From positions 1-32,704 of the forward strand of contig CAMGMU010000019.1 in assembly GCA_946059305.1 (NCBI GenBank): a DNA stretch of 32,704 nt. The letters run 5' to 3'. The notes beneath the pieces are model-generated. The model ran no database searches. It worked only from the letters and a program-made list of their open reading frames with translations, and was not told where the DNA came from. Within the stretch, counting starts at the first letter, position 1. Each line of letters starts with the position of its first letter. The stretch is from an uncultured Bacteroidales bacterium (GTDB lineage: Bacteria; Bacteroidota; Bacteroidia; Bacteroidales; Paludibacteraceae). Below, in pieces: positions 855-15,246 of this stretch. The position numbers and the translations under genes were made by a program.

Positions 855-1172
855 ATGAAAAAGATTCAGTTAGCACTTATGTGCGCAGTAGTGGCAGTGC
901 TTTTTGCCTGCAAACCCGATGGTGTAAGTGTGAAGGACATGGACGCTACCAAGTTAGACAACACCACCGCCAAATGTTGGGCATATACCATCGTTTATTC
1001 CGATGGAAAGACCACAGAAGGCTATTGGTGGGGTACAGAGCAGGAAACCGTGCTCATGTTGCAAACAGTCATCAAGAACGCGGAACACACCGCTGCCAAC
1101 GAGCCCAAGGACATCACCTACCAGGCAGACGGCACCAAAGACGAACAATCCTGCATGGATAAGAATATGTAA
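855..1172 (+). CDS. Small predicted lipoprotein of unknown function
   Basis: The product has 105 residues. It starts MKKIQLALMCAVVAVLFAC, a short signal peptide with a lipobox LFAC and Cys19 as the predicted lipidation site. The mature domain is about 86 residues, with a YTIVYSDGKTTEGYWWG segment that could be beta-rich and one further cysteine near the C-terminus. It has no clear similarity to the neighbouring lipoprotein beyond the signal region. It lies in the same orientation about 160 bp downstream, so the two may be co-transcribed. Function is unknown. The overlapping ORFs in other frames and on the minus strand look like shadows. Confidence 0.7.
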   Translation: MKKIQLALMCAVVAVLFACKPDGVSVKDMDATKLDNTTAKCWAYTIVYSDGKTTEGYWWGTEQETVLMLQTVIKNAEHTAANEPKDITYQADGTKDEQSCMDKNM

Positions 1173-1239
1173 GACCGCAGCAAGACCGCGATCGCTGTCC
1201 TCATCCTCCTCAACGGCGTTACCTACGACATGATGGGCA

Positions 1240-1351
1240 ATAGACGCGCAAGTCTTTAGAGATTTGAGGAGTCTGTAGGATACAAAAATAGGCATGGCGG
1301 CTCTCACGAGTGACCATGCCTATAAAATTTTTGAATGTAATTACTTTTTCT
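1240..1351 (-). ncRNA. Candidate small RNA, copy 1
   Basis: A good Bacteroidota promoter on the minus strand points into this interval. Read leftward, the transcript would contain the hairpin AGGCATGG...CCATGCCT (8-bp outer stem, inner CTC/GAG helix) followed by TATTTTTG, which could act as an intrinsic terminator. A 60-codon minus-strand ORF crosses it. However, four of the five codon differences between the two cassette copies that I compared change the amino acid, which argues against a conserved peptide. Transcript ends are guesses. It may instead be part of a mobile repeat. Confidence 0.4.
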
Positions 1352-1357
1352 AGGCTG

Positions 1358-1389
1358 CAAAGGTACAAAGAATTTTTTACATAGCCAAA
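1358..1389 (-). promoter_or_regulatory. Bacteroidota-type promoter driving the copy 1 cassette
   Basis: On the minus strand the -33 element TTTG (1386-1389) and the -7 element TACCTTTG (1358-1365) are 20 bp apart. This is the same arrangement as the tyrS promoter in this window. Confidence 0.7.
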
Positions 1390-1474
1390 TATTTTGAACA
1401 AAATTTTAAAAATTATCTATGTAGACGGTAAATCCATGGCGGAAATAAGGGTACGATGATTTTTTGGGGGGCAA

Positions 1475-1670
1475 TAGACGCGCAAGTCTTTAGAGAATCG
1501 ATGAGTCTGTAGGATACAAAAATAGGCATGGCGTCTCTCCCGAGTGGCCATGCCTTTAAAATCTAAAAGTTCATATGAGAAACACTTGCAACTTAAAAAA
1601 GTTGCAAGGAGCATTGTAATTATTAGAAAATAATTACAACTTTTTCATCACCAATTTGTCCTTTATTAGG
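1475..1670 (-). ncRNA. Candidate structured small RNA, copy 2
   Basis: Transcribed leftward from the promoter at 1677-1708, this RNA would fold into four successive hairpins. They are GTCCT/AGGAC (1658-1672), a perfect 11-bp stem TTGTAATTATT with a 4-nt loop (1614-1639), a perfect 10-bp stem CTTGCAACTT with a 4-nt loop (1585-1608), and the conserved AGGCATGGC...GCCATGCCT stem followed by TATTTTTG. No minus-strand gene follows, so it is not an obvious mRNA leader. I cannot match it to a named RNA family. Its ends are inferred, not observed. Confidence 0.45.
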
Positions 1671-1676
1671 ACGATG

Positions 1677-1708
1677 CAAAGGTACAAAGAATTTTAGACA
1701 TAGCCAAA
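1677..1708 (-). promoter_or_regulatory. Bacteroidota-type promoter driving the copy 2 cassette
   Basis: On the minus strand TTTG (1705-1708) and TACCTTTG (1677-1684) are separated by 20 bp. The element spacing and surrounding sequence are preserved from copy 1. Confidence 0.7.
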
Positions 1709-1805
1709 TCTAAAAGAACAAAATTAAAAAAAACTCAACGACCTTTGGTCTATGATGTCGAGTAAACGGTAATTTCATAGCGGAAGGCCGTTTTTTTTGT
1801 TGTCT

Positions 1806-1836
1806 TTTGGTGGGCAGGGGAAAAGTGGTAATTTTG
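1806..1836 (+). promoter_or_regulatory. Promoter of the tail/lysis gene run
   Basis: TTTG at 1806-1809 and TAATTTTG at 1829-1836 are separated by 19 bp, a close match to the Bacteroidota consensus. Transcription would begin near 1843, only about 17 nt before the ATG at 1860. This supports the downstream start over the track start at 1797, which lies upstream of the promoter. Confidence 0.7.
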
Positions 1837-1859
1837 CAGCCGACAAAACGTGCAGGATT

Positions 1860-2948
1860 ATGGCAATAAGAATTGATACCCAACTATCGGGCAAAACGTT
1901 TTATTCAAACGCGCTCAATGAGATACGTATTTCCACGACTGCATCATCGGTGCAGGTGCAGCTGAAGGTGAACGAGGAGACGGTCTTTTCGTCGATGTAT
2001 TATGCTGATGGGGTGGTGCAGGTGCGCAACCTGTCGTCTTTCTTCGAGTCGCTGATGGAGGAGCGCGAAGTGTCGCTCCTTGGCTTTACGGTCAAAGCGA
2101 TAGCAGCAGCTGAAGCAGCAGCGGCAGCAGCTGATGAGACTGCCGTGTCGAGCGCGTTCTTCGTGCTGTACTGCCGCGATGCGATCATCGACATACCCGC
2201 GGAGACGTTTCTGCAGGATTATTTTCTCACTACCCACGTCAGTCGGTTCACTACCGCCCAAAGCTGTGAGCATCTGAGTCTCTACCGTCCGGACTCCGCA
2301 GGCAGCGCCCCAATAACGCTACGGGTAAAGATGTGGCTCAGTCTGCCGGACAATAGAGTGGTGAGCCATACGTACCAGACGCAACTCAGCGCAGGGGTGG
2401 GGGTGGTAGGTATCAGCCTGCCGGTGCCGGATGTGCTCCTGCACGCTCGTGCGGCTTATGCCGACTGCCGTTTGCTATCCTTCGAGCTGACGGTGGACAA
2501 ACGGAGGTGTATGTTCTACGTGCAGCCTTGCCCCTCAGCGGAGCTGTTTATGTTTAGGAACAACTTCGGCTGCTGGGAGTCGGTTTCTTTTCCGGCGGAG
2601 AGCCGTTGTGTATTGGAAACGTCGTATTCAGAGTCGCAGGTGGATGGATTGTTGTCGGCATACGATGTACGTCACACGCGCAGGTATGAGTTGGAGTCGT
2701 GCTCATTGGTGCCGAACGCGATGCGCTGGTTGGAGCAGTTTGTTCGTTCCTCTCAGGTGCTGCATGGTCAGGGCGATGCTGCGCAACGCGTGCTGATAAA
2801 GGAGTATAGGTATGAACGGTCGAATGCGGCGGGCGCACCCCACCAGCTGTCATTCAGTTGGCAGTATGCGGATGGCAGGAGGGCGCATGATGTGCTTACC
2901 CTTGATAGCTCCATCTTTACTGAACCCTTTAATGAAACGTATGCCTGA
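1860..2948 (+). CDS. Predicted phage tail-associated protein
   Basis: From the ATG at 1860 (MAIRIDTQLSGKTFYSN) the protein has 362 residues. The track start at 1797 is rejected because a promoter overlaps it. No catalytic motif is visible. The sequence is rich in short beta-like segments, with an unusual alanine-rich run near residue 85 (AIAAAEAAAAAAD). It opens a same-strand run leading to a gp10-like protein, a fibre-like protein and a lysis cassette, so a structural tail or baseplate role is the best inference. It overlaps the next gene by one base (TGATG), suggesting translational coupling. It has no signal peptide. The exact function is not recognised. Confidence 0.6.
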   Translation: MAIRIDTQLSGKTFYSNALNEIRISTTASSVQVQLKVNEETVFSSMYYADGVVQVRNLSSFFESLMEEREVSLLGFTVKAIAAAEAAAAAADETAVSSAFFVLYCRDAIIDIPAETFLQDYFLTTHVSRFTTAQSCEHLSLYRPDSAGSAPITLRVKMWLSLPDNRVVSHTYQTQLSAGVGVVGISLPVPDVLLHARAAYADCRLLSFELTVDKRRCMFYVQPCPSAELFMFRNNFGCWESVSFPAESRCVLETSYSESQVDGLLSAYDVRHTRRYELESCSLVPNAMRWLEQFVRSSQVLHGQGDAAQRVLIKEYRYERSNAAGAPHQLSFSWQYADGRRAHDVLTLDSSIFTEPFNETYA

Positions 2949-3364
2949 TGGAGGAGATGGAGCAAAACGCCCTTGCTGAGCGCGAACGCTACGTGAGGGC
3001 ATGGAACGACACGATGATCCGCATCTGGCAGGAACGCATCACGCTGCTGGAGGTGATAGATACGCACCGGCTCTTGGAGTCGCCTGCCGCATTGCCTATC
3101 CGCGCAGATGGCCGCTTCTATGAGATGACTATCTCTGAAACGTTTTTGGAGTATGGCTTATGGCAGGACTATGGAACGGGTAAAGAAACGCCCCGCGGGA
3201 ACAGCGGCGACCTCGGCAGGCGCAAGATGCGCCAGCGTCGCCCGTGGTTTTCCAAGAAATACTATTCGTCGGTACTTAACCTCAGGGATTTTCTGAGCGA
3301 GAGCATAGGGCGGGAGTTTTGCGGGATCATGGCCGACACCTTTGAGCGAATCAATAAATTATGA
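2948..3364 (+). CDS. Phage tail-completion-like protein (HK97 gp10-like, tentative)
   Basis: This is a 138-residue, strongly charged protein. The central part contains LEYGLWQDYGTGKETPRGNSGDLG followed by WFSKKYYSSVLNLRDF. I associate this pattern with a small protein found near tail genes in Bacteroides-type prophages, resembling gp10-like head-tail or tail completion proteins. That assignment is from memory, not a search. It starts at the ATG overlapping the previous stop (TGATG) and ends five bases before the next start, so translation of the three genes is probably coupled. There is no signal peptide or membrane segment. Confidence 0.55.
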   Translation: MEEMEQNALAERERYVRAWNDTMIRIWQERITLLEVIDTHRLLESPAALPIRADGRFYEMTISETFLEYGLWQDYGTGKETPRGNSGDLGRRKMRQRRPWFSKKYYSSVLNLRDFLSESIGREFCGIMADTFERINKL

Positions 3365-3368
3365 TACT

Positions 3369-3992
3369 ATGACGAAAAACGAAATCCAAACCCTGATTAC
3401 CGCCTTGGGTAATCAAACGCAACCCAAGTCCATTACGCCTACGATGATGGCTGATATCCTACGGAATATCGTAAATGTAATCCCCAGCGATTCGCCAACA
3501 GGCGCATCCAGTTCTGCGGAGTACGTGTATCAACGTGGCCAGAATATTGAGTTCTTTTTTGGGCATACAGTAAAGAGCAGCTCAACTACTGCTGTTGCAT
3601 GCCCCATCGTGCTCGACGATGATACGTTGCAATGTATCACTGGTCAGATTGTTGACATCAGCACGAATGACGATTCTTCACCTATGGTTAAGGCCATTCA
3701 ACCTTGCCTTGTAGAAATCACCGGTTATCTGACTGTCCAAGCAGCAGGAGACTGCTCGTCAAACCGGATCTTTCAAATGTATAAAACAGATGAAAATGGT
3801 GAACGAGCTGATGTGCAAGTAAACGCAGTTCACTTCACAGACACAACGCAAGTCTTCTCCGTGCCCATCAATTATATGGCATTCCTGTTCGCCGGAGAAA
3901 CGTTGCACTTGACCACGTACACCTCGTCAGGTACAACAACTATCTCCGCCAATTCATGGCTGAATATCAAAGCTGTTCTTGTAAAAATGTAA
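3369..3992 (+). CDS. Fibre-like phage structural protein (tentative)
   Basis: From ATG 3369 (MTKNEIQTLITALGNQ) the product has 207 residues; the track start at 3342 would overlap the previous gene. The N-terminal 45 residues look helical, with the segment TPTMMADILRNIVNVI, a style I associate with the attachment region of Bacteroidota phage fibre proteins. The rest is rich in Ser, Thr and Val and likely beta-structured, ending in WLNIKAVLVKM. A head or tail fibre or appendage role is inferred from composition and from its position between a tail-type gene and the holin. No enzymatic motif is seen. Confidence 0.5.
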   Translation: MTKNEIQTLITALGNQTQPKSITPTMMADILRNIVNVIPSDSPTGASSSAEYVYQRGQNIEFFFGHTVKSSSTTAVACPIVLDDDTLQCITGQIVDISTNDDSSPMVKAIQPCLVEITGYLTVQAAGDCSSNRIFQMYKTDENGERADVQVNAVHFTDTTQVFSVPINYMAFLFAGETLHLTTYTSSGTTTISANSWLNIKAVLVKM

Positions 3993-4016
3993 CCACAACC
4001 CCCTAAACCTATAACG

Positions 4017-4298
4017 ATGAAAGAACAAAAACATTCTCTGTCTCCGCAAGGCTGGGCAGGTATCCTCCTTGCGACGATCATCTCCATCTCCTACCTCATT
4101 GGGTTGATAACGCCCCCTCCCGGTGAACTGAAACCAACGCAACTCGAAGGGATGGAATGGATGGTCAAACTGGTGCTCATCTTCTTTGCGTGGGACGCAG
4201 TGAAGAGCGGCCTTAACGCCATCTTTGAGCATGGTAAAACCAAACTGACTATCAGCCAACAGTCTAAACAAACTAAACCCGGAGGTTCCCCCGACTAA
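4017..4298 (+). CDS. Putative phage holin
   Basis: This 93-residue protein has two hydrophobic segments: about residues 12-33 (GWAGILLATIISISYLIGLI) and about 46-66 (WMVKLVLIFFAWDAVKSGL). The C-terminal tail is hydrophilic, with lysines and glutamines. Size, topology and position directly upstream of an amidase gene fit a holin, which would permeabilise the inner membrane so that the endolysin can reach peptidoglycan. Holins are diverse and I cannot assign a family. A GC-rich stretch that can form hairpins (4284-4330) separates it from the amidase gene. Confidence 0.65.
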   Translation: MKEQKHSLSPQGWAGILLATIISISYLIGLITPPPGELKPTQLEGMEWMVKLVLIFFAWDAVKSGLNAIFEHGKTKLTISQQSKQTKPGGSPD

Positions 4299-4344
4299 CG
4301 GGGAAACCGGCTTCCGCCGGAAGGGGCTACTAAACCAAATTACT

Positions 4345-4758
4345 ATGAGAAAAATTTCTGAAATTATCGTGCATTGCACAGCTACCTTCTCAGACCAGAA
4401 GGTGACAATCGACATCCTTCGCAAGTGGCACAAGAAGCATGGCTTCAAGGATGTAGGCTATCACTATCTCATTGATCTCGATGGCAACATTCTCACCGGG
4501 CGACCGGTGGAACAAGTGGGCGCGCATTGTAAGGATCACAACGCGCACTCTATTGGTGTTGCTTATGCCGGAGGCCTGGGCGCTGACGCCCGTCCTGCCG
4601 ACACGCTCAACGAGAAGCAGCGGGCATCGCTCATTCAACTGTTGTCAGAGTTGAGAGAGCAATACCCTGATGCCACAATCCATGGGCACAATGAGTTTGC
4701 CAACAAGGCGTGTCCTTGTTTTGATGTACAACAATTTATAAAGGAGGTGGGCCTATGA
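4345..4758 (+). CDS. N-acetylmuramoyl-L-alanine amidase (endolysin, Amidase_2 type)
   Basis: The 137-residue protein is a minimal T7-lysozyme-like amidase that would cleave the lactyl-amide bond between muramic acid and the stem peptide. Zinc ligands can be placed at His10 (IIVHCTAT), His115 (IHGHNEF) and Cys123 (KACPCFD), with Lys121 two residues before the cysteine as in T7 lysozyme. There is no signal peptide, so export would depend on the preceding holin. Its stop overlaps the start of the next gene (ATGA). The domain is full length and appears intact. Phage origin is supported by the holin and spanin-like neighbours. Confidence 0.88.
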   Translation: MRKISEIIVHCTATFSDQKVTIDILRKWHKKHGFKDVGYHYLIDLDGNILTGRPVEQVGAHCKDHNAHSIGVAYAGGLGADARPADTLNEKQRASLIQLLSELREQYPDATIHGHNEFANKACPCFDVQQFIKEVGL

Positions 4759-5522
4759 AGTCTCACGTCCTTTACAAGTTGCACTCGGTGACCCGCCGAG
4801 TGATACATCTCGCTCTTGGTGTGCTATCTTGGCTGAAGCGAACGGCTGTCCAGGCAGTCGCTTCAATTATGAATACTATATGCATGGTGTTCTTAGTATC
4901 GCTCGTTACTGGTTGCCATATGAATCGCCACGTGGTTACCCATGTGGACGATACAGGTGTCAGCCAGACCGGACATCGAGAACAGGCTGTATCGAGCCGA
5001 CTCGATAGCGTGTTCTCTCAGCTTTCTGCTTCAGCCGATAGCATAACCTTGATTTTGTATGGTAATGCTATTCCCTCCACAGTGCTGAGCAGTTTTGCCT
5101 CCGCTACAGGTTGTGGTGTGACCTCCACCTCCACGTGTAGTGCGACGAGCGCATTACATGTTCCGGCTCCGGACACACTACAATCTTCCGCTCCGGCTTC
5201 GCTGCCCGGCACGGCTCCGGGAACCTTCGCGGGAGTGATGGGCGACCATCCTCCTGCGAAGGCTCGTATTACCATACATTCCCCGCGAATAAACAAGGAA
5301 ATTCGGAGTGGTTCCAGCTCCTGCGTGGCTACCAATGTGGCCGATAGCACAAGGAGCAATACGGAGGCCCACACATCCACCGATGACTCCAAAGAGGTCA
5401 TTGGAGGCGCTGAACCTCCCAAGCTGACTTGGGTGTTCATTGTGTTGGGGCTCGGTATTACACTCCTCTTAATCGGTACTATTTTCGGCTACATATGGCT
5501 GCACAAAAAGGGGCTATTGTAG
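4755..5522 (+). CDS. Candidate single-gene spanin (lipoprotein with C-terminal membrane anchor)
   Basis: The 255-residue product combines two features rarely found together: a lipobox LVTGC with Cys54, and a C-terminal transmembrane helix at about residues 226-248 ending in a short basic tail (HKKGLL). Unimolecular spanins such as T1 gp11 have this layout, linking outer membrane to inner membrane for the last step of lysis. The central region is Ser/Thr/Ala/Pro-rich and low in complexity. An internal ATG at 4869 (MNTICMVFLVSLVTGC) would give a shorter, more typical lipoprotein signal. The ATG at 4755 overlaps the amidase stop. Position after holin and endolysin supports the call; the sequence itself resembles no spanin I can name. 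Confidence 0.6.
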   Translation: MKSHVLYKLHSVTRRVIHLALGVLSWLKRTAVQAVASIMNTICMVFLVSLVTGCHMNRHVVTHVDDTGVSQTGHREQAVSSRLDSVFSQLSASADSITLILYGNAIPSTVLSSFASATGCGVTSTSTCSATSALHVPAPDTLQSSAPASLPGTAPGTFAGVMGDHPPAKARITIHSPRINKEIRSGSSSCVATNVADSTRSNTEAHTSTDDSKEVIGGAEPPKLTWVFIVLGLGITLLLIGTIFGYIWLHKKGLL

Positions 5523-5568
5523 AGAAACATTCCTTTTTCGCTTGTTGGCAAACACCGTCCATTTATAA

Positions 5569-5624
5569 AGGCTTTACTATTAGAAACACTATTGCATGGT
5601 GTTTCAAGTAGTAAGGCCTTTTTT
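5569..5624 (+). terminator. Strong intrinsic terminator after the lysis cassette
   Basis: Two 22-nt arms (AGGCTTTACTATTAGAAACACT, 5569-5590, and its near-complement at 5598-5619) pair with a few wobble positions around a 7-nt loop and are followed by TTTTTT. It ends the transcript that starts at the 1806 promoter, which explains why the tape measure gene has its own promoter-like site. Confidence 0.85.
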
Positions 5625-5712
5625 CTGTTCGCTCTTCCGCATGCGTATAGGCCGACGAGCGGTTTATACACGTGCGTAAGGCTCATTACCGCGCATCCGC
5701 GGATTTTCCGTG

Positions 5713-5975
5713 GGCGAGAGTGGGGACTCTTGCGGTCGCGGTGATGGTGTGGAGACTCCGAAGGCTTTGGGCGAGAGTGGGGGACTCTTGCGGTCGCGGT
5801 GATGGTGTGGAGACTCCGAAGGCTTTGGGCGAGAGTGGGGGACTCTTGCGGTCGCGGTGATGGTGTGGAGACCATAGGCTTTGGGTGAGAGTGGGGGACT
5901 CTTGCGGTCGCGGTGATGGTTGGGAGACTCCGAAGGCTTTGGGAGAAGGTGGAGACTCTTGGCTTTGGTCTTCGC
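5713..5975. repeat. 58-bp minisatellite, about four and a half copies
   Basis: The unit GGACTCTTGCGGTCGCGG...GAGAGTGGG starts at 5724, 5782 and 5840 (58-bp period) and at 5896 (56 bp, after a 2-bp loss), then decays. The gene-free interval 5625-6407 around it holds further GAGACT/GGGACT words up to about 6100. Because 58 is not a multiple of three, all three minus-strand frames stay open and produce proline/serine-rich shadow ORFs. I see no codon-level conservation and do not call a gene. A weak minus-strand -7 match (CAAAATTA, 6160-6167) lacks a good -33. Confidence 0.85.
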
Positions 5976-6222
5976 GTAGTCCAGCACGCGCATTATGTGC
6001 GTGTGGGACATATTGCGCGCGCGTAAGCATTAGAGACTCGCAATGCGCTTGCGTACGTAGAGGGACTTTAGAGGTCAGCGAAAAGGTGAGAGACTTTTGG
6101 GGCATTTTTTTAGGTTGGACTTTTTCAATGTGACCGAGGTGGTCGCTTGACATATAATGCAAAATTATTAGTGCGTATGTGAGTGGCTAAAGCAGGGCGG
6201 ACGGTGGGGCTTGTGACACTAA

Positions 6223-6243
6223 GGAGGGGAAAATTTCCCCTCC
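6223..6243. other. 21-bp perfect palindrome upstream of the tape measure gene
   Basis: GGAGGGGAAA-a-TTTCCCCTCC has 10-bp arms around one base and is followed by CCTCTTTTGTTTTTCC. It may be a weak terminator or a protein-binding site in the gap before the tape measure promoter. There is no further support. Confidence 0.5.
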
Positions 6244-6407
6244 ACCTCTTTTGTTTTTCCAATGTATGCTGAATTTTTGTCCGACGAGGGCCGGAAATTT
6301 TCAAGGACAGTTTGGAAATTTTTCCGATTTTTGGACTTAATTAATTGATTTTACAGGGTTTTACGGGTGATTTGGGCTTTGTCTTTTCGTATGCGTGAGT
6401 TGTTGAC

Positions 6408-6415
6408 TAATTTTG
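6408..6415 (+). promoter_or_regulatory. -7 promoter element for the tape measure gene
   Basis: TAATTTTG matches the Bacteroidota -7 element. The -33 position shows only TTTC (6385-6388), so the match is partial. Its position makes the ATG at 6433 the likely start, with a leader of about 11 nt. Confidence 0.5.
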
Positions 6416-6432
6416 CGGAAAAATTTGATACT

Positions 6433-9400
6433 ATGTCAGACTATTCAACAAACGCTTCCGTCAATCTTCAAGTGAACGGACAACAAGCTCAGGAGACGCT
6501 TATGAACCTTCGCAAGCATGCTCTTGATTTAACAGAGCAGATTGCCAAAGCGGCAGCTGCGGGAGATAAGGTTAGTATGCAAAAACTTCGTAAGGAACTC
6601 AAGGAGACGAACCGACAGATCAAAGAAATGGAGTCGGCAACTCAGCAGGTAGATAATGTGCTTCGCAGGCTGGATAAGGCAACACCTCATGAACTCCAGA
6701 AAGTACTCCAAACGCTCAATAAGCAACTTCAGTATATGGAACGCGGTTCCGATGTGTGGCAGCAGCAGACCCAACGCATCCGGATGGTGAAAGATGAAAT
6801 ATCTCGAGTTAATGGTGAACTCTCTCGTTCCCAATCTTTATTGGAGCGCTTTAACAACAAGTGGCAAGAGTGGCAGACTGTAGCCATGGGTGCAGCAGCT
6901 GCTTTTACCGGTGCCGTCATGGCAGGCCGCTCGGCCGTGAATGCCTATGCAGAGATGGAGCAGGAGATGGCCAATGTGCGTAAGTTTACGGGCATGACTA
7001 ATGATGAAGTGGTAGCCTTAAACAAGGAGTTTCTGAAGATTGATACTCGTTCGGGTCGCGACGAACTGAACAAGTTGGCTCAGGAGGCAGGCCGATTGGG
7101 TAAAACATCGCTTGAGGATGTGCTCGGTTTCGTGAAGGCAGCAGACCAAATCAATGTCGCATTGGACGATCTGGGCGATGGTGCAACGCTGACGCTATCC
7201 AAACTTACGAGTATCTTCGGTGACGAAGCACGTTTGGGTACAGAAAGATCGTTGTTGGCCGTAGGCTCGGTCATCAATGAACTTTCTCAGAACTGTACCG
7301 CTTCAGCTCCTTACCTCGCTCAGTTCGCCAAGCGTCTTGCCGGTGTAGGTGCCCAAGCGGATATGACTATCCCGCAAATCATGGGCTTTGCTGCTGTCCT
7401 TGATTCTCAGGGTCAGGCAGTTGAGATGTCCGCGACGGCCATGTCAAAGGTAATCATGAACATGTTCAAGGAAACCGACAAGCTTTGTGCTGCCACGGGG
7501 CTTAATGTGGAGGAGTTCAATGCTGCCCTCAAACGCTCTACGAACGAAGGTCTGATGATGCTGCTTGACCAGCTGCACAATGCAGGCGGCATTGATGTAC
7601 TCGCTCCGATATTTAAGGATATGGGTGAGAACGGCGCTCGTGCGTCATCCGTGATCTCCGCTCTTGCAGCCAATATTGACATGGTCAAATGGGAGCAGGA
7701 GGAAGCCACGAAAGCCTTTGAAGAGGCAACGTCCATCACCAAGGAGTTTACAGTTCAGAACACCACAGTACAAGCGGGTCTCGATAAGGCCCGAAAGGGC
7801 TTTACAGAGATGTCGGTTGTATTGGGTGAGAAACTGGCCCCTGTCATGAAACATGTGATCACATCTTCATCCGCAACGCTTCGTTTGATGGCAATGATGG
7901 TCGATTTTATCAGTAAGAATATAGCGTCCATCGTAACCATTACGGCAGCCATTATTGCGTACACGATAGCGGCTAACGCAGCTGCCGTTGCGCAAAAAGT
8001 GTATAGTACGGCAGTCAAGGCAGCCACTACGATACAGAAAGCTTTCAATACGGCTATCAAACAGAATCCCCTCGGTCTGATAGCAGCCGCCGTGACGGCC
8101 GCTGTTGTCGCATTGGTGGAGTACCGTAAGCACCTTCGTCAGGTGGCAGCAGAGCATGATGCCGTTGGCCAAGCCGAGAAAGCAGCATACAAGGAGTATG
8201 CTGCATCCAAGGCTAAGGTGGAACAACTGTCAGCAGCAGTACACAACAATGCCTTGTCTCTCAGTTATCGCAAGAAGGCGTTGAAGGAACTGCAATCCAT
8301 CGTGCCCGGTTACCACGCCAGTCTGACGAAAGAAGGCGAGCTGATTAATGACAATACAACTGCCATTCAACAGTACCTCTCGGTACTCCAAAAGAAACTC
8401 CAGTACCAGGCTTATGAGGATAAGTTGGCTCAGCAATACGCAAAGCGTGCTGAAAAGGAGATGGAATTGGACGAAGCGAAGATAGTAGCTCAACAAAGAC
8501 GAGATGAATACACAGTAGAGGTCCGAAATGTCACTCGTGATGTCAATGGTAATATAACTGCGGGTAGTGCAATTAAGATGGATAAGGCGTTGAATAAGTC
8601 GCGCAATGCAGACAAGGCAGTTACCGAATTGCAAGATGAGTTGGCGGTTATTGATGAACAGATTGATAAACTGACAGCAAAGATTGGTAAAACGGATGCT
8701 GTAATACCCGTTACAGTCGAACCTGTGATAGAGGAAGATAAGCCGCTATCGTTGCCGGCTACAACTGAAAAAGCAGATAGTAAGAATAAGTTCCAAGCAG
8801 AAGACGATTGGAAAGAGCGTGAGCAAGCGCTGAACCGCATTGCTTACGCCAAGGGTGAGGCAGACTACGATGCGTACGTCAAGCGCATGCTTGCCATTGA
8901 GGTGGAGTATAATGAGAAGAAGTTAGCTCATACCGATTTGCTAGGCAATGAAGAGGTGACGATTCAAGCAGCTTATGAAGACGCGAAGTTTAAGCAACGT
9001 CAGAATGCCATTGAGGGCACTATTGAGCAGGAGAATGAGGAGAATGACCGCTTACTGGCCATTCTCAACCAGAGATATGTAGATGGTGAACTCTCTGCCC
9101 GCCTGTTCCAGGCGTCCATCGAGATGCAGGAGTTGGAGCACTTACGTCGTGTAGCGAACCTTTATGACGAAGGCAGCAAGGAAAGGCTGAAAGCGGAGAA
9201 GACGTATCATGACACGTCTCTTCGTTATCAGCAGAAGCACCTTCAGGAAGCCAAGCAGATTCAAGAGAAGATGCGCGAGACGTACTTCACCAAGGCATAT
9301 ACGGTAACGGATGAAGAATCCTATAACCGGGATATGAAGAATCTTGAGCTTGTCTATAAGCAGATGCTGGAAGCAGCCGGTCATAGCAATAAGGATCGCC

Positions 9401-10377
9401 TGAAGGTGGAACGAGCTTTCTACGAAGCCAAGTACCAATTGGCCCGTAAGTATAACATCAAGGAAGCTAAGCACCTGTCGAACTCCTTTAGGAGCGCTAT
9501 TGATGATAGCATTGATTGGCTCAATTCGGATGCGGGAAAAGCCATGACCGAGTCTTTCTCCATGATTGTGGAGCAGATGGGTTCCATCTTCTCGGGATTG
9601 AGCGATATCATCCAAGCGGAGCTCGAAATTCAGACGGCCAAAATCGAAACCCGATATGATGCAGAGATAGCAGCCGCAGAGGGTAACAAATCCAAGGAAG
9701 TAGCTTTGGAGCAACAGAAACAAACCGATATAGGTAAAGCCAAGAAGGATGCCAACCGAAAGATGTTTGCCATGCAGGTGCTGCAAGCTATTGCTCAGAC
9801 GGCTATGTCTGCCATCGCAGCTTACAGTTCAGCAGCAGCTATTCCTATTGTAGGTTTTGTGATGGCACCTATTGCAGCCGCCATGGCCGTAGCAGCTGGA
9901 GCCATCCAGATTGCATCCATAAAGAAGCAGCAGCAAGCATCCGATAATATCAGTTATGCAGGTGGTGGTTTCACGAAGCCGGGAAACAAATACGAGGAGG
10001 TAGGTATTGTTCACGCAGGCGAGTGGGTGGCAAGTCAGGAACTCTTGGCAAACCCAACGGCAAGGGCCATGATAAACACCCTTGATTATGCCCAACGCAC
10101 CAATACCATAGGCTCCTTAAACGCTGATGATGTGTCCGCGTCCATCACAGCTCCACAGGTAATTGCCAAGGCTTCGTCTGATGGGCATCTACAGCAGTCG
10201 CTAACGGCAACTGCCGTGACCTTGAAGGAATATAGCCGAGTGATGAAAGACCTGAATGCTCGTCTTAATGAGCCATTTGTAACGGTCAATACCGTAACCG
10301 GTGACGTGGGTATAAAGAAAGCCCAAGATGAGTATGAGCAGTTAATACGTAATAAAACGCCTAAATCCCGCAGATAA
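6433..10377 (+). CDS. Phage tail tape measure protein
   Basis: From ATG 6433 (MSDYSTNASVNLQVNG) the protein has 1314 residues. The track start at 6367 lies before a -7 promoter element. The N-terminal ~150 residues are predicted coiled coil. Next comes a TP901-like tape measure core at about 170-440, recognisable by YAEMEQEMANVRKFTGM, ELNKLAQEAGRLGKTS and ENGARASSVISALAANIDM. Hydrophobic segments follow (IASIVTITAAIIAYTIAANAA and, near the end, AAAIPIVGFVMAPIAAAMAVAA), with a long helical region between. The C-terminal motif GGGFTKPGNKYEEVGIVHAGEWV is typical of Bacteroidota tape measure proteins as I know them. Such proteins set tail length and pass through the tail during DNA delivery. The frame is intact throughout, and the last base overlaps the next ATG. 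Confidence 0.9.
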   Translation: MSDYSTNASVNLQVNGQQAQETLMNLRKHALDLTEQIAKAAAAGDKVSMQKLRKELKETNRQIKEMESATQQVDNVLRRLDKATPHELQKVLQTLNKQLQYMERGSDVWQQQTQRIRMVKDEISRVNGELSRSQSLLERFNNKWQEWQTVAMGAAAAFTGAVMAGRSAVNAYAEMEQEMANVRKFTGMTNDEVVALNKEFLKIDTRSGRDELNKLAQEAGRLGKTSLEDVLGFVKAADQINVALDDLGDGATLTLSKLTSIFGDEARLGTERSLLAVGSVINELSQNCTASAPYLAQFAKRLAGVGAQADMTIPQIMGFAAVLDSQGQAVEMSATAMSKVIMNMFKETDKLCAATGLNVEEFNAALKRSTNEGLMMLLDQLHNAGGIDVLAPIFKDMGENGARASSVISALAANIDMVKWEQEEATKAFEEATSITKEFTVQNTTVQAGLDKARKGFTEMSVVLGEKLAPVMKHVITSSSATLRLMAMMVDFISKNIASIVTITAAIIAYTIAANAAAVAQKVYSTAVKAATTIQKAFNTAIKQNPLGLIAAAVTAAVVALVEYRKHLRQVAAEHDAVGQAEKAAYKEYAASKAKVEQLSAAVHNNALSLSYRKKALKELQSIVPGYHASLTKEGELINDNTTAIQQYLSVLQKKLQYQAYEDKLAQQYAKRAEKEMELDEAKIVAQQRRDEYTVEVRNVTRDVNGNITAGSAIKMDKALNKSRNADKAVTELQDELAVIDEQIDKLTAKIGKTDAVIPVTVEPVIEEDKPLSLPATTEKADSKNKFQAEDDWKEREQALNRIAYAKGEADYDAYVKRMLAIEVEYNEKKLAHTDLLGNEEVTIQAAYEDAKFKQRQNAIEGTIEQENEENDRLLAILNQRYVDGELSARLFQASIEMQELEHLRRVANLYDEGSKERLKAEKTYHDTSLRYQQKHLQEAKQIQEKMRETYFTKAYTVTDEESYNRDMKNLELVYKQMLEAAGHSNKDRLKVERAFYEAKYQLARKYNIKEAKHLSNSFRSAIDDSIDWLNSDAGKAMTESFSMIVEQMGSIFSGLSDIIQAELEIQTAKIETRYDAEIAAAEGNKSKEVALEQQKQTDIGKAKKDANRKMFAMQVLQAIAQTAMSAIAAYSSAAAIPIVGFVMAPIAAAMAVAAGAIQIASIKKQQQASDNISYAGGGFTKPGNKYEEVGIVHAGEWVASQELLANPTARAMINTLDYAQRTNTIGSLNADDVSASITAPQVIAKASSDGHLQQSLTATAVTLKEYSRVMKDLNARLNEPFVTVNTVTGDVGIKKAQDEYEQLIRNKTPKSRR

Positions 10378-12215
10378 TGGAAATTTATGTAGATAAAAAA
10401 CGCGCAGTGCTGAAGAAGGGCACTTCATTTGATTTTGTTTCGGAGAACCGATATTTCTCTGGAGCAGACAGTTATACCATGGCAATCACCTTCCCTCTGA
10501 AGGATTGCCCCGAGAATCTTGCCATCTTCGGGCATATCAACCGAAAAGATGTCATCGCCAAGAAACTGCTGTTTGACTGTGAGCTTCGTAGTCTGACGTT
10601 CTACAAGCGCGGCTCCATCACCATCACCGAGATTACAGATGTGCAGGTGAAGACGCAGTTTTTGGAGGGGAAATCGGTCGCCAATTATTCGGATCAGTTC
10701 GATACGCTCTACATCAATGAGCTCGAATTGGGCTATCCGGATACGTCTCCTTCCAATACAGCAGCCAACGTATATGTTGGCCATAGTATTGATGATGGTC
10801 TAAATTACCTGGCTTTGCCTTGGGTAAATAACCACAGTGGCAACCTACAAAATCGATCGGTTTATGCCTCCATGTCCACTGCCATTAAAGGGCCTGACAG
10901 TTGGCATAGCAGTGTCAACAAACTCTCTTTCCAGCCGTATTTGCTGTATGTCTTGGAGTTGATTTGCAATGCCATCGGTTACACGTACGACTTTACAGCC
11001 CTTCGTAATAGCCCATATCGTTATCTGATTATCTGCAACACACTGCCATCTGCATGGGATACCACGAACTTTGCGCTTGCTTTGCCGCATTGGACGCTGA
11101 CAGAGTTCTTTGAGCAGCTGGAGTATTTTCTTAATGGAGAGTTTGATATCAACCAAGCAGAACGTAAGATAAGGTTTGGATTCTCCTCTGTCGCCATCAA
11201 GGCTGCCGGAGCAATAGAGATTAAGACTGTGGTCGATGAGTTTTCTGCTACCATTGAAGACGCAGGAGCTTGCAAATATCGAGAGTTTGTCAATCTGAAA
11301 TTTGCTGACTGCAATCATCGTATGTGGAAGTATTACTCCTGCAAATGGTTTGTAGATATGATGAAGAACACCGACGTGGTGCTTTCGTCTGGTTTAGGGT
11401 CATATAACTATGGCAAGTTCTATCGAGAGGTTAATGGTGCGCAGGGCTTATATATCCAGCTCAGAGATGCTGCTGATTTTGTGGAGTCGGAGTATAGCGG
11501 ATGGAATCCGGAGTATCTTTATTATTGTAAGTATGAAGATACGTACTTCATCTTGCGCAACTATGGTTCGTACATAGTTGATTCCTCGAAGCCTGAGAAT
11601 TTGGAGGGTAATAAGCGGTATAAGAACTTGCTTGAGCCAATCAATATGTTTGGCGATTCTATTGTTGATGAGGAAGCAGACACTATTGAACTTAAGATAG
11701 TGCCCGCATGGATTGATGAAGCGTATGCCGACGGCACGCTCCAGGGTAAGTCTTTGTTTCTTGATTGTGGAGAGTACCACAATGGCGTTGAAAACATAAT
11801 TCCGTGGAACTACTCGCAGCAGAAGCTCGACGCTGGAGAACAAGAACGTTCTGTGGAATACTTTGATAAGTTGTACATGGGATTTTGGAGTGGTACTCTG
11901 TACCCTTGTATGATGGGCACGTTGGCTTATCCAGTCATCGACCGCATCATCACGTACCCCAATGAAATGAACTATAATGAAACTCCTTTCACTATGCGTC
12001 TGCGTGCAACAGAATATGGAACGTACACGAAAACGTATAAGATTAGCAGCAAGAAGAAATATACGTTCAAGTTCCTTGCAGACAAACTCCCGAATGTACG
12101 TAGTGTGTTTATCATTCATGGGCAGCGATATCTTTGCGAAAAGTTGACAACCAACTTCACGGAGGATGGTATGTCGCAACTTGTTAAGGCCGAGTGTTGG
12201 CTGGTCGAGGATTAG
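10377..12215 (+). CDS. Large phage tail protein following the tape measure gene
   Basis: This 612-residue protein starts MEIYVDKKRAVLKKGTSFDF, with its ATG sharing one base with the tape measure stop (TAATG), so the two are translationally coupled. Composition is rich in Tyr, Phe and Trp and largely beta, without signal peptide, membrane segment or enzymatic motif. The C-terminus (KLPNVRSVFIIHGQRYLCEKLTTNF) resembles the style of proteins that follow tape measure genes in Bacteroidota prophages. A distal tail or hub role is inferred from position only. The frame is intact. It converges on the integrase gene 20 bp away. Confidence 0.65.
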   Translation: MEIYVDKKRAVLKKGTSFDFVSENRYFSGADSYTMAITFPLKDCPENLAIFGHINRKDVIAKKLLFDCELRSLTFYKRGSITITEITDVQVKTQFLEGKSVANYSDQFDTLYINELELGYPDTSPSNTAANVYVGHSIDDGLNYLALPWVNNHSGNLQNRSVYASMSTAIKGPDSWHSSVNKLSFQPYLLYVLELICNAIGYTYDFTALRNSPYRYLIICNTLPSAWDTTNFALALPHWTLTEFFEQLEYFLNGEFDINQAERKIRFGFSSVAIKAAGAIEIKTVVDEFSATIEDAGACKYREFVNLKFADCNHRMWKYYSCKWFVDMMKNTDVVLSSGLGSYNYGKFYREVNGAQGLYIQLRDAADFVESEYSGWNPEYLYYCKYEDTYFILRNYGSYIVDSSKPENLEGNKRYKNLLEPINMFGDSIVDEEADTIELKIVPAWIDEAYADGTLQGKSLFLDCGEYHNGVENIIPWNYSQQKLDAGEQERSVEYFDKLYMGFWSGTLYPCMMGTLAYPVIDRIITYPNEMNYNETPFTMRLRATEYGTYTKTYKISSKKKYTFKFLADKLPNVRSVFIIHGQRYLCEKLTTNFTEDGMSQLVKAECWLVED

Positions 12216-12224
12216 CCCTCGACC
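12203..12224. terminator. Hairpin between convergent tail and integrase genes
   Basis: GGTCGAGG (12203-12210) and CCTCGACC (12217-12224) form an 8-bp GC-rich stem with a 6-nt loop that contains the tail gene stop codon. There is no strong T-run on either side, so termination is plausible but weak. Confidence 0.5.
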
Positions 12225-12235
12225 GCCATACTCGT

Positions 12236-13447
12236 TTATTCTTCAATATTTTTCTCTAACTTTACAAGTTTCTTCTTACCCAAAGAGACGTTTGCCCCTC
12301 GGACTGCTTCAATCATCTTCCCTGTATCCTTTCCAATATATTTGTTAGTCGTGGAGATATCCGCATGTCCGGCAGCCTCTTTTACTTGGTTGATACTTAC
12401 ACCTGCCTCCAACATCTCTGTAATACCGGAGTCTTTGAGAGAGTAGAGTTGCATCTCATCCGGCAGACCGCATTCCTTACGAATTTTCATCCAATGCTTT
12501 TTGAACATAGAATGGTAACAAGGATCTGGGCCACACTCATAATTGGAGTTTATGAGATACCATGTCGGCAAAATCCCCGGCTTGGAAAGAAGCGGTATGA
12601 GCATTGCTATACACGTGTCACTTAGTGCAGCATCTCTATCCTTGTGGGTCTTCGCTTTATTGGCAGGGATGTGTATGCACTTGTTTATGAGGTCAACATC
12701 ACGAACTTGTAGACGCTCGATTTCGCTTGGTCGGATGAGAGAGGTGAACACCAGGTGCATCACGATCTCATAATTGGGGTGCTTGGATGAGCGCACGTAA
12801 TTAATTACTTTATCGCGCGCCTCAGGTGGAATTAATCCACGAATCTTCTCTTGCTTCTGGAGTGTCTTAATTTGATCAAAGGGATTGTCATTTACAAACT
12901 CATGTTCTTTTAGCCAGTTAAAAGCAGCACGATACTTCTTTAGATAGGTGTTGTATGTATTGTTGTTGAACTTGGGTCGGTTACGTAAATCTTCCATGAA
13001 CTGACGGGCGATGCTCACATTGAATTTGATGCAGGCTATTTCCCCGATTCCCTTCTCAACAAGCCAATCTTTGAGTATTTTGGCTACTGATGTATAGGAA
13101 ACCATGGAAGCTTCACGAAGGTCGCGTCCCTTATCCGTTATGTATGCATCTAAACCATAGGATAGGGTCTGTAATTGCTTCGTATTCTTCGAACCATCTG
13201 TAAACGGATTCCAACCGGAAGCCAGTTTGATGTTGATATCGCATAACACTTTATTAGCCGCTACCTTGAACTCCATGAGAGTCCGGCATCGGTTTTTGAG
13301 GGCATTGAGGCGAAAGACCTTTCGCTCTAATTTTGATGTTACGGGATTGAGTACGTGATACTCTACGAAGTAGCCACTCTTGTACGCCTTCAGTGTGGCG
13401 GGAAGGTACGTTACGAAGTTGAACGTTGAAAGTTGCGATTCAAACAT
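12236..13447 (-). CDS. Tyrosine recombinase / phage integrase
   Basis: This is a 403-residue protein with a N-terminal arm-binding region (about 1-90), a SAM-like core-binding domain (about 95-190) and a catalytic domain (about 200-390). Catalytic positions can be assigned: Arg239 (SLIRPSEIERL), a Lys in KAKTHK (264/266), His361 (AAGHADI) and the nucleophile Tyr370 (TTNKYIG). The usual HxxR box is replaced by YSLK (335-338), so its arginine is a lysine. The variant is not obviously inactivating; I believe related Bacteroidota integrases share it, but did not check. The 5' end faces tRNA-Gln 140 bp away, as expected for an integrase at a tRNA attachment site. The second strand's ORFs are shadows. 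Confidence 0.9.
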   Translation of the reverse strand: MFESQLSTFNFVTYLPATLKAYKSGYFVEYHVLNPVTSKLERKVFRLNALKNRCRTLMEFKVAANKVLCDINIKLASGWNPFTDGSKNTKQLQTLSYGLDAYITDKGRDLREASMVSYTSVAKILKDWLVEKGIGEIACIKFNVSIARQFMEDLRNRPKFNNNTYNTYLKKYRAAFNWLKEHEFVNDNPFDQIKTLQKQEKIRGLIPPEARDKVINYVRSSKHPNYEIVMHLVFTSLIRPSEIERLQVRDVDLINKCIHIPANKAKTHKDRDAALSDTCIAMLIPLLSKPGILPTWYLINSNYECGPDPCYHSMFKKHWMKIRKECGLPDEMQLYSLKDSGITEMLEAGVSINQVKEAAGHADISTTNKYIGKDTGKMIEAVRGANVSLGKKKLVKLEKNIEE

Positions 13448-13512
13448 TTTTTTTTCTTCTTTGAGTTGACTTTCAAAGGAGAATTTTTTTGAAACGGCTT
13501 ATTTTAACGTGA

Positions 13513-13563
13513 AGACTGCTAAAAAAAGTTGCGACGTCTTTGCGACACTTTTTTTAGCAGTCT
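13513..13563. repeat. 17-bp perfect inverted repeat between integrase and tRNA-Gln
   Basis: AGACTGCTAAAAAAAGT (13513-13529) is exactly complementary to ACTTTTTTTAGCAGTCT (13547-13563), around a 17-nt centre containing the direct repeat TGCGAC twice. A smaller hairpin GCTGA-tta-TCAGC lies at 13573-13585. It may terminate the tRNA transcript, or be part of the attachment site with recombinase-binding repeats. The remaining sequence of the 13448-13766 gap holds the tRNA and its promoter. Confidence 0.75.
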
Positions 13564-13589
13564 CTGTAAGTTGCTGATTATCAGCCTTG

Positions 13590-13660
13590 TTGCTTAACCA
13601 GGACTCGAACCCAGACAGACAGAACCAGAATCTGTAGTGCTACCATTACACCATTAAGCA
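13590..13660 (-). tRNA. tRNA-Gln (CTG)
   Basis: The minus strand reads TGCTTAA...TTAAGCA as a 7-bp acceptor stem with discriminator A. It has a D arm containing AATGGTAGC, an anticodon stem ACAGA/TCTGT with loop TTCTGGT (anticodon CTG), and a T arm with TTCGAGT. CCA is not encoded. The 3' end faces the phage-derived element, the usual geometry for integration into a tRNA 3' end. Confidence 0.95.
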
Positions 13661-13682
13661 ATGCGCTTTCTTAAAAGCGGTG

Positions 13683-13713
13683 CAAAATTACTGCTTTTTT
13701 TTGAAACAGCAAA
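13683..13713 (-). promoter_or_regulatory. Promoter of tRNA-Gln
   Basis: The minus strand carries TTTG (13710-13713) and TAATTTTG (13683-13690), 19 bp apart, placing initiation about 16 nt before the tRNA. Confidence 0.7.
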
Positions 13714-13766
13714 ATTTTTTTCGAAAAAAATGCAGAAAAAATGCGTTTTTGGTTGTTTTTGATAAG

Positions 13767-14666
13767 TTAAGTGCGCAAATTGTCGATCATCATGCGGAAA
13801 ATGCGTATATACTCGGGTGTGGTACCGCAGCATCCTCCTACCATGTTCAGCATCCCTTCGCGTATCATCGTTTGGATCACCTGAGCCATCTCATCGGGCG
13901 TATGCTCGTATCTGCCCTCCGCATTGGGCAGACCGGCATTGGGATAGCAGCAGAGGCAACATCGCTGGTTCACCGCCTCTTGCATCTGCTTCAGGTAAGG
14001 CAACATAGCGCGTGCGCCGTATCCGCAGTTGAGCCCCACGGCAAGGGGCTGGGCCGCCAAAGCCGTTTCCACAAACATCGGGATCGTATGTCCTGACAGC
14101 ATGCATCCGCTCTCGCCTGCCACCGTCATGCACACGATCATCGGCGGCATGGCTCCCGCACGCTGCGCCAGTTGTTCGGCTGCCAAGAGTGCGGCTCTCA
14201 GGTTGCGTATGTCGGTTACCGTTTCGATAAGCAAAGCATCCGCCCCTCCCTGCAAGAGTGCCTCCATCTGTATGCGGTATGCCTCTGCGAGCATACGGAA
14301 AGCGCGTTCCCCATCATCGGGCTGGGCGCAATGCATCGTGGAGAGCATGTACTCGGTAGGCCCTACATCGCCGAGCACGAAGCGCTGCTGCCCAGTGGTG
14401 ACGGTGTATTGGTCGGCAACTTGTCTGGCCAATCGTGTCGCATAGAGATTGATTAGTGGGTTGCCATGGCTGCTGAAAGTGCAGGTAGTGATGCAGTCAG
14501 CCCCTGCCGCAAGATAGGCGCGATGGATCTGCGCAATCTCTTGGGGCTGGTCGATAACGAGCGCATCGGCGAGCCCTCGGTAATGGGGTAGGCGGCTCTG
14601 CAGGAGCGAACCCATGGCACCATCAAGGAGGAGGATACGCTGGGATATGGCTTGGGTGATAGTCAT
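13767..14666 (-). CDS. Homocysteine S-methyltransferase (stand-alone Hcy domain)
   Basis: From the ATG at 14666 (MTITQAISQRILLLDGAMG) the protein has 299 residues; the track extension to 14780 overlaps the upstream gene. It is a single homocysteine-methyltransferase barrel. The zinc cysteines are Cys214 (GLNCG) and Cys279/280 (GGCCGTTP), which activate homocysteine thiolate in MetH and BHMT-type enzymes. The LDGAMGS motif near the N-terminus is like MetH. The pterin- and cobalamin-binding parts of full MetH are absent, so it either uses a donor such as S-methylmethionine or SAM (MmuM-like), or forms part of a split MetH system. It follows the GtrA-like gene by 8 bp and probably shares its transcript. 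Confidence 0.88.
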   Translation of the reverse strand: MTITQAISQRILLLDGAMGSLLQSRLPHYRGLADALVIDQPQEIAQIHRAYLAAGADCITTCTFSSHGNPLINLYATRLARQVADQYTVTTGQQRFVLGDVGPTEYMLSTMHCAQPDDGERAFRMLAEAYRIQMEALLQGGADALLIETVTDIRNLRAALLAAEQLAQRAGAMPPMIVCMTVAGESGCMLSGHTIPMFVETALAAQPLAVGLNCGYGARAMLPYLKQMQEAVNQRCCLCCYPNAGLPNAEGRYEHTPDEMAQVIQTMIREGMLNMVGGCCGTTPEYIRIFRMMIDNLRT

Positions 14667-14674
14667 CGCAGGGG

Positions 14675-15079
14675 TTAACGTTCGTCGATTTTCCCGCGAT
14701 ACACCACAAAGCGCTGCCAGAGAAACTCGGTGATGAGGTTGAGGAGCATGTTGATGGCCGTAACCAGATAGGGATTCCACGCAACGGGTTCGGCCGTGAG
14801 CGCGTGTTCAAGCCACGTGGTGGATGGGGTAAAGAAGGCATAATAGAGCGCCACAAGCGCCATGGCTCGGGGCACGTTGGCATACGAGCGAAAAGTGAAG
14901 CGGCGGTTGAGGGTGAAATTCCAGAGCACCGACAGCACCAATGCAATCAGATAACACAGCCAATGCGGCCAATGGAGCGCCTCCTCCATGAGGGCGAATG
15001 AGCCCATCTGGATGACTCCCGCCGAAGCCGAGAAAAGCAGGAACTTCAGCGCACGTACAGATTCGTTTTTCTTACTCAT
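14675..15079 (-). CDS. GtrA-family membrane protein
   Basis: Starting at ATG 15079 (MSKKNESVRALKFLLFS) the product has 134 residues and four predicted transmembrane helices. The pattern SVLWNFTLNRRFTF between helices two and three is characteristic of the GtrA-like family, and the ending FLWQRFVVYRG also fits. Members are thought to help move lipid-linked sugars across the membrane for surface polysaccharide or glycolipid synthesis. The track start at 15127 is rejected because the promoter at 15088-15119 overlaps it. With that promoter, transcription would begin almost at the ATG. It is the first gene of a two-gene run with the homocysteine methyltransferase, a pairing with no obvious functional logic. 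Confidence 0.85.
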   Translation of the reverse strand: MSKKNESVRALKFLLFSASAGVIQMGSFALMEEALHWPHWLCYLIALVLSVLWNFTLNRRFTFRSYANVPRAMALVALYYAFFTPSTTWLEHALTAEPVAWNPYLVTAINMLLNLITEFLWQRFVVYRGKIDER

Positions 15080-15087
15080 AACTGCCG

Positions 15088-15119
15088 CAAAATTACAAAA
15101 AAACGCGCATTCTGCCAAA
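15088..15119 (-). promoter_or_regulatory. Promoter of the gtrA-like / methyltransferase pair
   Basis: On the minus strand TTTG (15116-15119) and TAATTTTG (15088-15095) are 20 bp apart. Initiation about 7 nt later would be at 15081 or so, one or two bases before the ATG at 15079, implying a leaderless or nearly leaderless mRNA. Confidence 0.65.
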
Positions 15120-15164
15120 TTTTGCATAAGAAATGCCCCGAAAATGAAAAGAATTTACACTTTT

Positions 15165-15196
15165 TTTGCATAATTCAGAAAAACTTTGTACCTTTG
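15165..15196 (+). promoter_or_regulatory. Promoter of tyrS
   Basis: TTTG (15165-15168) and TACCTTTG (15189-15196) are separated by 20 bp. The leader would be about 90 nt and contains an alternating CG run (GCGCTCGCGCGCGCG) and the 18-bp tandem repeat. Confidence 0.75.
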
Positions 15197-15246
15197 CATG
15201 CCCATTAGTGCGCTCGCGCGCGCGTCCAGCACGTGCGGTAATGAAT

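Follow-up and report, generated by a model that had tools for sequence, protein, structure and literature searches.

Two similar units lie in tandem beside a small lipoprotein gene in a Bacteroidales genome, and they raise the question of whether such a locus specifies a pair of small RNAs (sRNAs), a peptide, a dispersed repeat or only the end of a transcript. The window, by which the whole analysed stretch of 32,704 nt is meant, is contig 19 of this 2.18-Mb genome. The first-pass annotation had described two diverged copies, at 1235–1447 and 1469–1788. Two copies are indeed present, comprising a 94-nt direct repeat with 93% identity (1235–1328 and 1469–1562), which contains the hairpin and what comes after it, and a second repeat block with 79% identity, which contains the promoter (1356–1412 and 1675–1731). 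The outer part of the two units can also be aligned, and the similarity runs further than the ends first given, so the units are delimited as follows.

855..1172, plus strand: small predicted lipoprotein gene, convergent to the units (ORF list and Pfam scan, the latter without a match)
1235..1468, minus strand: tandem unit, copy 1 (direct repeats and alignment)
1469..~1800, minus strand: tandem unit, copy 2 (direct repeats and alignment)

Each copy possesses a minus-strand promoter of the Bacteroidota −33/−7 type with the same spacing, as the first-pass annotation had proposed.

1358..1389, minus strand (reads 1389–1358): copy 1 promoter, TTTG-N20-TACCTTTG, Bacteroidota sigma-ABfr type (pattern; common before the genes of this genome)
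1677..1708, minus strand (reads 1708–1677): copy 2 promoter, TTTG-N20-TACCTTTG (pattern)

The chance expectation of this pattern in the 688-bp region is 0.035 on both strands together, and its density in the window (0.14 per kb per strand) corresponds to approximately 0.03 expected matches per 250 nt. The promoter block is ordinary by itself, since it has more than 30 matches across this genome, mostly ahead of genes. Judged by sequence pattern, both copies have the promoter of their own that is looked for in an intergenic sRNA.

Downstream of the promoter, both copies form a strong minus-strand hairpin followed by TATTTTTG, again in agreement with the first reading. The folding energy is −21.6 kcal/mol for copy 1 (z-score of −6.5 against shuffles) and −20.3 kcal/mol for copy 2 (z-score of −5.0). 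Copy 2 contains two additional hairpins placed from promoter to terminator, one of which is shared with the related copy C63.

1288..1323, minus strand: copy 1 terminator hairpin, with an 11-bp stem, an internal loop and a CUC-GUGA-GAG cap, then UUUUUG (folding and covariation)
1524..1555, minus strand: copy 2 terminator hairpin, with a 9-bp stem and a CUC-GGGA-GAG cap, then UAUUUUUG (folding and covariation)
1585..1608, minus strand: copy 2 upstream hairpin CTTGCAACTTTTTTAAGTTGCAAG, terminator-like, also present in the C63 copy (alignment and terminator scan)
~1613..1640, minus strand: copy 2 A+U-rich hairpin of 12 bp (folding)

The combination of a stable stem and an immediate U-run on the same strand, which defines an intrinsic terminator, is found in both copies, and the U-run is likewise present in relatives. 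A generic terminator scan left the hairpins at 1288–1323 and 1524–1555 unlisted, probably owing to a capped loop that exceeds the loop limit of the scan.

Taken together, we consider it probable that each copy is a short protein-free transcription unit, extending from its promoter to an intrinsic terminator of a genus-specific type, with transcription and function predicted from the DNA. From the TTTG-N20-TACCTTTG promoter, RNA polymerase would copy a 5′ part of approximately 30 to 115 nt, which differs between the copies. Transcription would then stop at a Rho-independent terminator with a variable, compensated stem, a 2×2 internal loop and a CUC-GNRA-GAG cap. The products, of approximately 70 nt (copy 1) and 90–150 nt (copy 2), would be intergenic sRNA candidates converging on the lipoprotein gene.

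1284..1351, minus strand: predicted copy 1 transcript, ~68 nt, start and end inferred
1518..1670, minus strand: predicted copy 2 transcript, ~153 nt, which may stop earlier, near 1580

It had been suggested that the transcript is partly antisense to the lipoprotein region; at most this would apply to the 3′ UTR, but not to the gene itself, as the predicted end at ~1284 lies 112 nt short of the stop codon (1172).

The hairpin belongs to a wider family. On contig 65 of the same genome, a promoter precedes a hairpin with an identical cap and another stem (C65), and a covariance model detected strong copies in approximately 16 of the 178 genomes of the genus. The family cap is constant (CACUC-GNGA-GAG, with a GNRA loop), and CUCG-N-GAGAG is invariant in 20 sequences, an invariance that is partly by construction, as the sequences were retrieved via the cap. 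For each of the five consecutive stem pairs 7–11, both sides have changed in 2 to 12 sequences, with pairing kept in all 20; these are the compensatory changes for which the first-pass annotation had proposed a covariance-model search. The covariation score of 0.359 in the 20 sequences compares with 0.135 for shuffled alignments (none of 500 shuffles reaches it) and with at most 0.130 for slid controls. The outer stem pairs (columns 3–5) are mostly unpaired outside the type present in the window. There is thus good evidence, from sequence covariation, that the capped hairpin is selected as a hairpin; this conservation alone is not proof of an sRNA, because terminators are selected as hairpins too.

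As to its wider spread, the family was detected in 4 of 393 genomes of the order, two of them outside the genus, and there were weak matches in 2 further genomes of the phylum among 396 (E-value up to 0.001). The cap-plus-T-run pattern occurs in 15 of 295 order genomes, compared with 3 for reversed controls. A genome of another family (L118, L122; G313 contig 43) contains four terminators whose cap is similar and whose stem is identical, CTCGTGAGAGGCGCGCAG; this appears to be an expansion that arose independently. A literature search turned up no paper on the CUCGNGAGAG cap, which is weak evidence of absence.

The hairpin is found in two genomic contexts. At the 16 strong loci from other species of the genus, no promoter occurs within 250 nt of the hairpin, and a same-strand stop codon lies 26–162 nt upstream of the hairpin in 13 of them; there, by its position in the sequence, the capped hairpin is mostly an ordinary gene-end terminator. 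At many of these loci another hairpin and then TTTTTCATAATATTTTTATAT come before the capped hairpin and its T-run, a layout that suggests two terminators in tandem where an operon ends. At five loci (L104, L105, L106, L109 and L110), this tandem terminator, with a CCCTCC-GGAGG-type first hairpin, is located approximately 50–60 nt past the stop codon, and many species of the genus conserve it at the ends of apparent operons for secreted or surface proteins.

In the window genome and its sister, five of six hairpins (copies 1 and 2, C65, and C50 and C72 of the sister) lie 32–117 nt downstream of a canonical promoter; these five lack a same-strand ORF stop within 200 nt, and the interval between promoter and hairpin is gene-free. 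They are not independent, as copies 1 and 2 and sister C72 represent one locus, and C65 and sister C50 another. The exception is C63, in which a −7-like TACTTTTG is present but a −33 element is not clearly recognisable. Free-standing cases are few: in the two sister genomes a full promoter is present at two independent loci, to which the partial C63 and perhaps one case in G120 can be added. Interspersed intergenic repeats of the GGAAC...CTGGAACAGC type (L031 2020–2960, L032 1–360) adjoin the C63 copy and a fragment of the unit, C3.

The sister genome was identified by a pattern scan of 85,462 genomes, which returned one other contig, JALFZG010000010.1 of MAG SUG1147. This contig is colinear with the window, comprising the lipoprotein end, a single copy of the unit at the position of copy 1, tRNA-Gln and the same genes beyond. 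The single copy consists of the copy-1 side of the unit joined to the outer part of copy 2; it follows that either the duplication in the window is newer or SUG1147 lost a copy by recombination between the repeats. From the −7 region to the terminator inclusive, C65 and its sister counterpart show no difference, so that the whole predicted transcript is identical; upstream of the promoter they are unrelated. This identity lends moderate support, because the coding sequence near C65 is also very similar between the two genomes. The tail CTCTAAAGACTTGCGC, considered as a wider element, is confined to this genome and its sister.

In its 5′ part, copy 1 differs considerably from the sister copy at the equivalent position, and the two window copies also differ from each other there. 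A conserved 5′ seed, as sought in intergenic sRNAs, was found only in C65 and its sister copy and was not found in the window copies. Conservation of the 5′ seed is not demanded of every sRNA. The lack of conservation in the window copies argues against a shared base-pairing seed or a trans-acting role.

In the window, approximately 11.7 kb of phage genes that are absent from SUG1147 lie between copy 2 and tRNA-Gln. This phage-derived region (1800–13575) includes an amidase (4345–4758), a tape measure protein (6367–10377) and, beside tRNA-Gln, a tyrosine integrase (12236–13447); head and packaging genes were not recognised in the portion scanned. A tandem repeat of approximately 58 nt, in four copies, lies upstream of the tape-measure gene (5691–5961). 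An attachment repeat that would link the duplication to the prophage was sought at the left side of the region, and none was found. A phage or plasmid origin of the units themselves was rejected: there was only a short match to one crAss-like phage (two records), no match to plasmids, and one chance match, inside a coding gene, in viral pattern scans. Further along, a segment containing a homocysteine-methyltransferase-like gene (13575–15203) has 83% identity to SUG1147, compared with 91–95% in its flanks, which is a possible local replacement.

Each copy also contains an open minus-strand ORF, which was judged not to be a gene.

1219..1401, minus strand: copy 1 ORF, 60 aa (ORF list and substitutions)
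1417..1614, minus strand: copy 2 ORF, 65 aa (ORF list and substitutions)

That the cassette encodes a small peptide (MVTRESRHAYFCILQTPQISKDLRVYCP...) is hardly credible, even though the frame is open in copies 1 and 2 and in the sister. The first-pass annotation had noted that the shared ORF differs mainly by amino-acid-changing codons, and the counts bear this out, with 2 synonymous and 5 non-synonymous differences between the copies and 0 and 3 between copy 1 and the sister, against a neutral synonymous share of 0.22. The selection test that it had suggested thus detected no purifying selection, although the numbers are small enough that weak selection is possible on these counts alone. Moreover, C63 has lost the second half of the ORF, the conserved cap falls in another reading frame in C65, and the hairpin copies of other species sit in 3′ UTRs; at the sequence level, the cap is kept as nucleotides and not as amino acids. 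A search with peptide patterns across the 85,462 genomes and viral contigs found no relative. The substitution pattern, the frame change of the cap and the lack of relatives led us to reject the peptide and to regard the units as non-coding, and with the compensatory stem changes they uphold the earlier view that RNA fits better than peptide.

A possible, though doubtful, alternative is that the hairpin is an intrinsic terminator only, on the minus strand and perhaps on both, where it would end the lipoprotein mRNA too, with the promoter and the duplication incidental and the short RNA a non-functional by-product. It is consistent with this that in other species the same hairpin type occurs just past stop codons, where a second hairpin and TTTTTCATAATATTTTTATAT often precede it; so are the convergent genes that face the free-standing copy 1, C63 and C65 at a distance of 19–108 nt. 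However, the promoter–hairpin arrangement is seen again at independent loci as well as in the sister, the predicted transcript of C65 is conserved over its full length, and no T-run directly follows the stem on the plus strand. It is decidedly improbable that the unit is a small dispersed repeat (MITE- or REP-like) that moves or recombines with the promoter and hairpin as its parts: the tandem duplication and the position of C63 and C3 amid interspersed repeats would fit, but terminal repeats, target duplications and fixed ends were not seen, the copies are few, and the shared piece varies from pair to pair. We also regard as unlikely a more elaborate scheme, in which the CUC-GNRA-GAG-capped hairpin would be a protein- or RNA-recognised 3′ module of this genus that marks the mRNA ends of surface-protein operons, possibly with 3′-UTR-derived sRNAs; in one lineage it would have been combined with stand-alone promoters to give a paralogous sRNA family.

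What speaks for the sRNA reading is that promoter and terminator are paired in this genome and its sister and that the predicted C65 transcript is conserved throughout. The two copies are best regarded as candidate small-RNA units whose terminator is of a genus-specific type; the initial preference for RNA over peptide stands, but the hairpin is not particular to the pair, being a recurrent 3′-end terminator type of the genus. If the RNAs act, a local role makes the least assumption, given the lack of conservation in the presumptive seed regions: each copy would supply a terminator and a short transcript where convergent units meet, and might do so for both strands. For the window copies, such a local role or no role is possible.

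In Bacteroides thetaiotaomicron, intergenic sRNAs are assigned with high confidence when a start site and an intrinsic terminator are both present; of 11 tested intergenic candidates, 9 were detected on Northern blots, 8 of the 9 having both features, and many such RNAs are strain-specific (PMC7366714). The candidate units share with these sRNAs the canonical TTTG / TAnnTTTG promoter, the short non-coding unit and the intrinsic terminator; they are alike in layout and not in sequence. The FopS paralogous family and GibS, whose members are intergenic, antisense or 3′-UTR-derived, are similarly multicopy and promoter-driven with a 3′ terminator hairpin; FopS conserves its 5′ seed, whereas the units conserve the terminator cap and not the 5′ part (PMC11697453). 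Membership of a known RNA family was rejected, as an Rfam search gave no gathering-level match and its best weak matches are unrelated; the Rfam copy used may or may not hold a FopS model. Like ordinary intrinsic terminators, the hairpin has a stable stem and a U-run and, in the other species of its genus, lies past stop codons, but it differs from them in its near-invariant CUCGNGAGAG cap, its freely changing stem and its promoter-linked, free-standing copies in two genomes.

The object is of an ordinary kind, and its members are new. If transcribed, the units would be new small-RNA genes in a Bacteroidales genus known mostly from MAGs, and they would illustrate how a terminator type of mRNAs can be recruited into a free-standing RNA gene. 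That the cap is near-invariant on a freely covarying stem raises the separate question of why one loop sequence is preferred at the gene ends of this genus.
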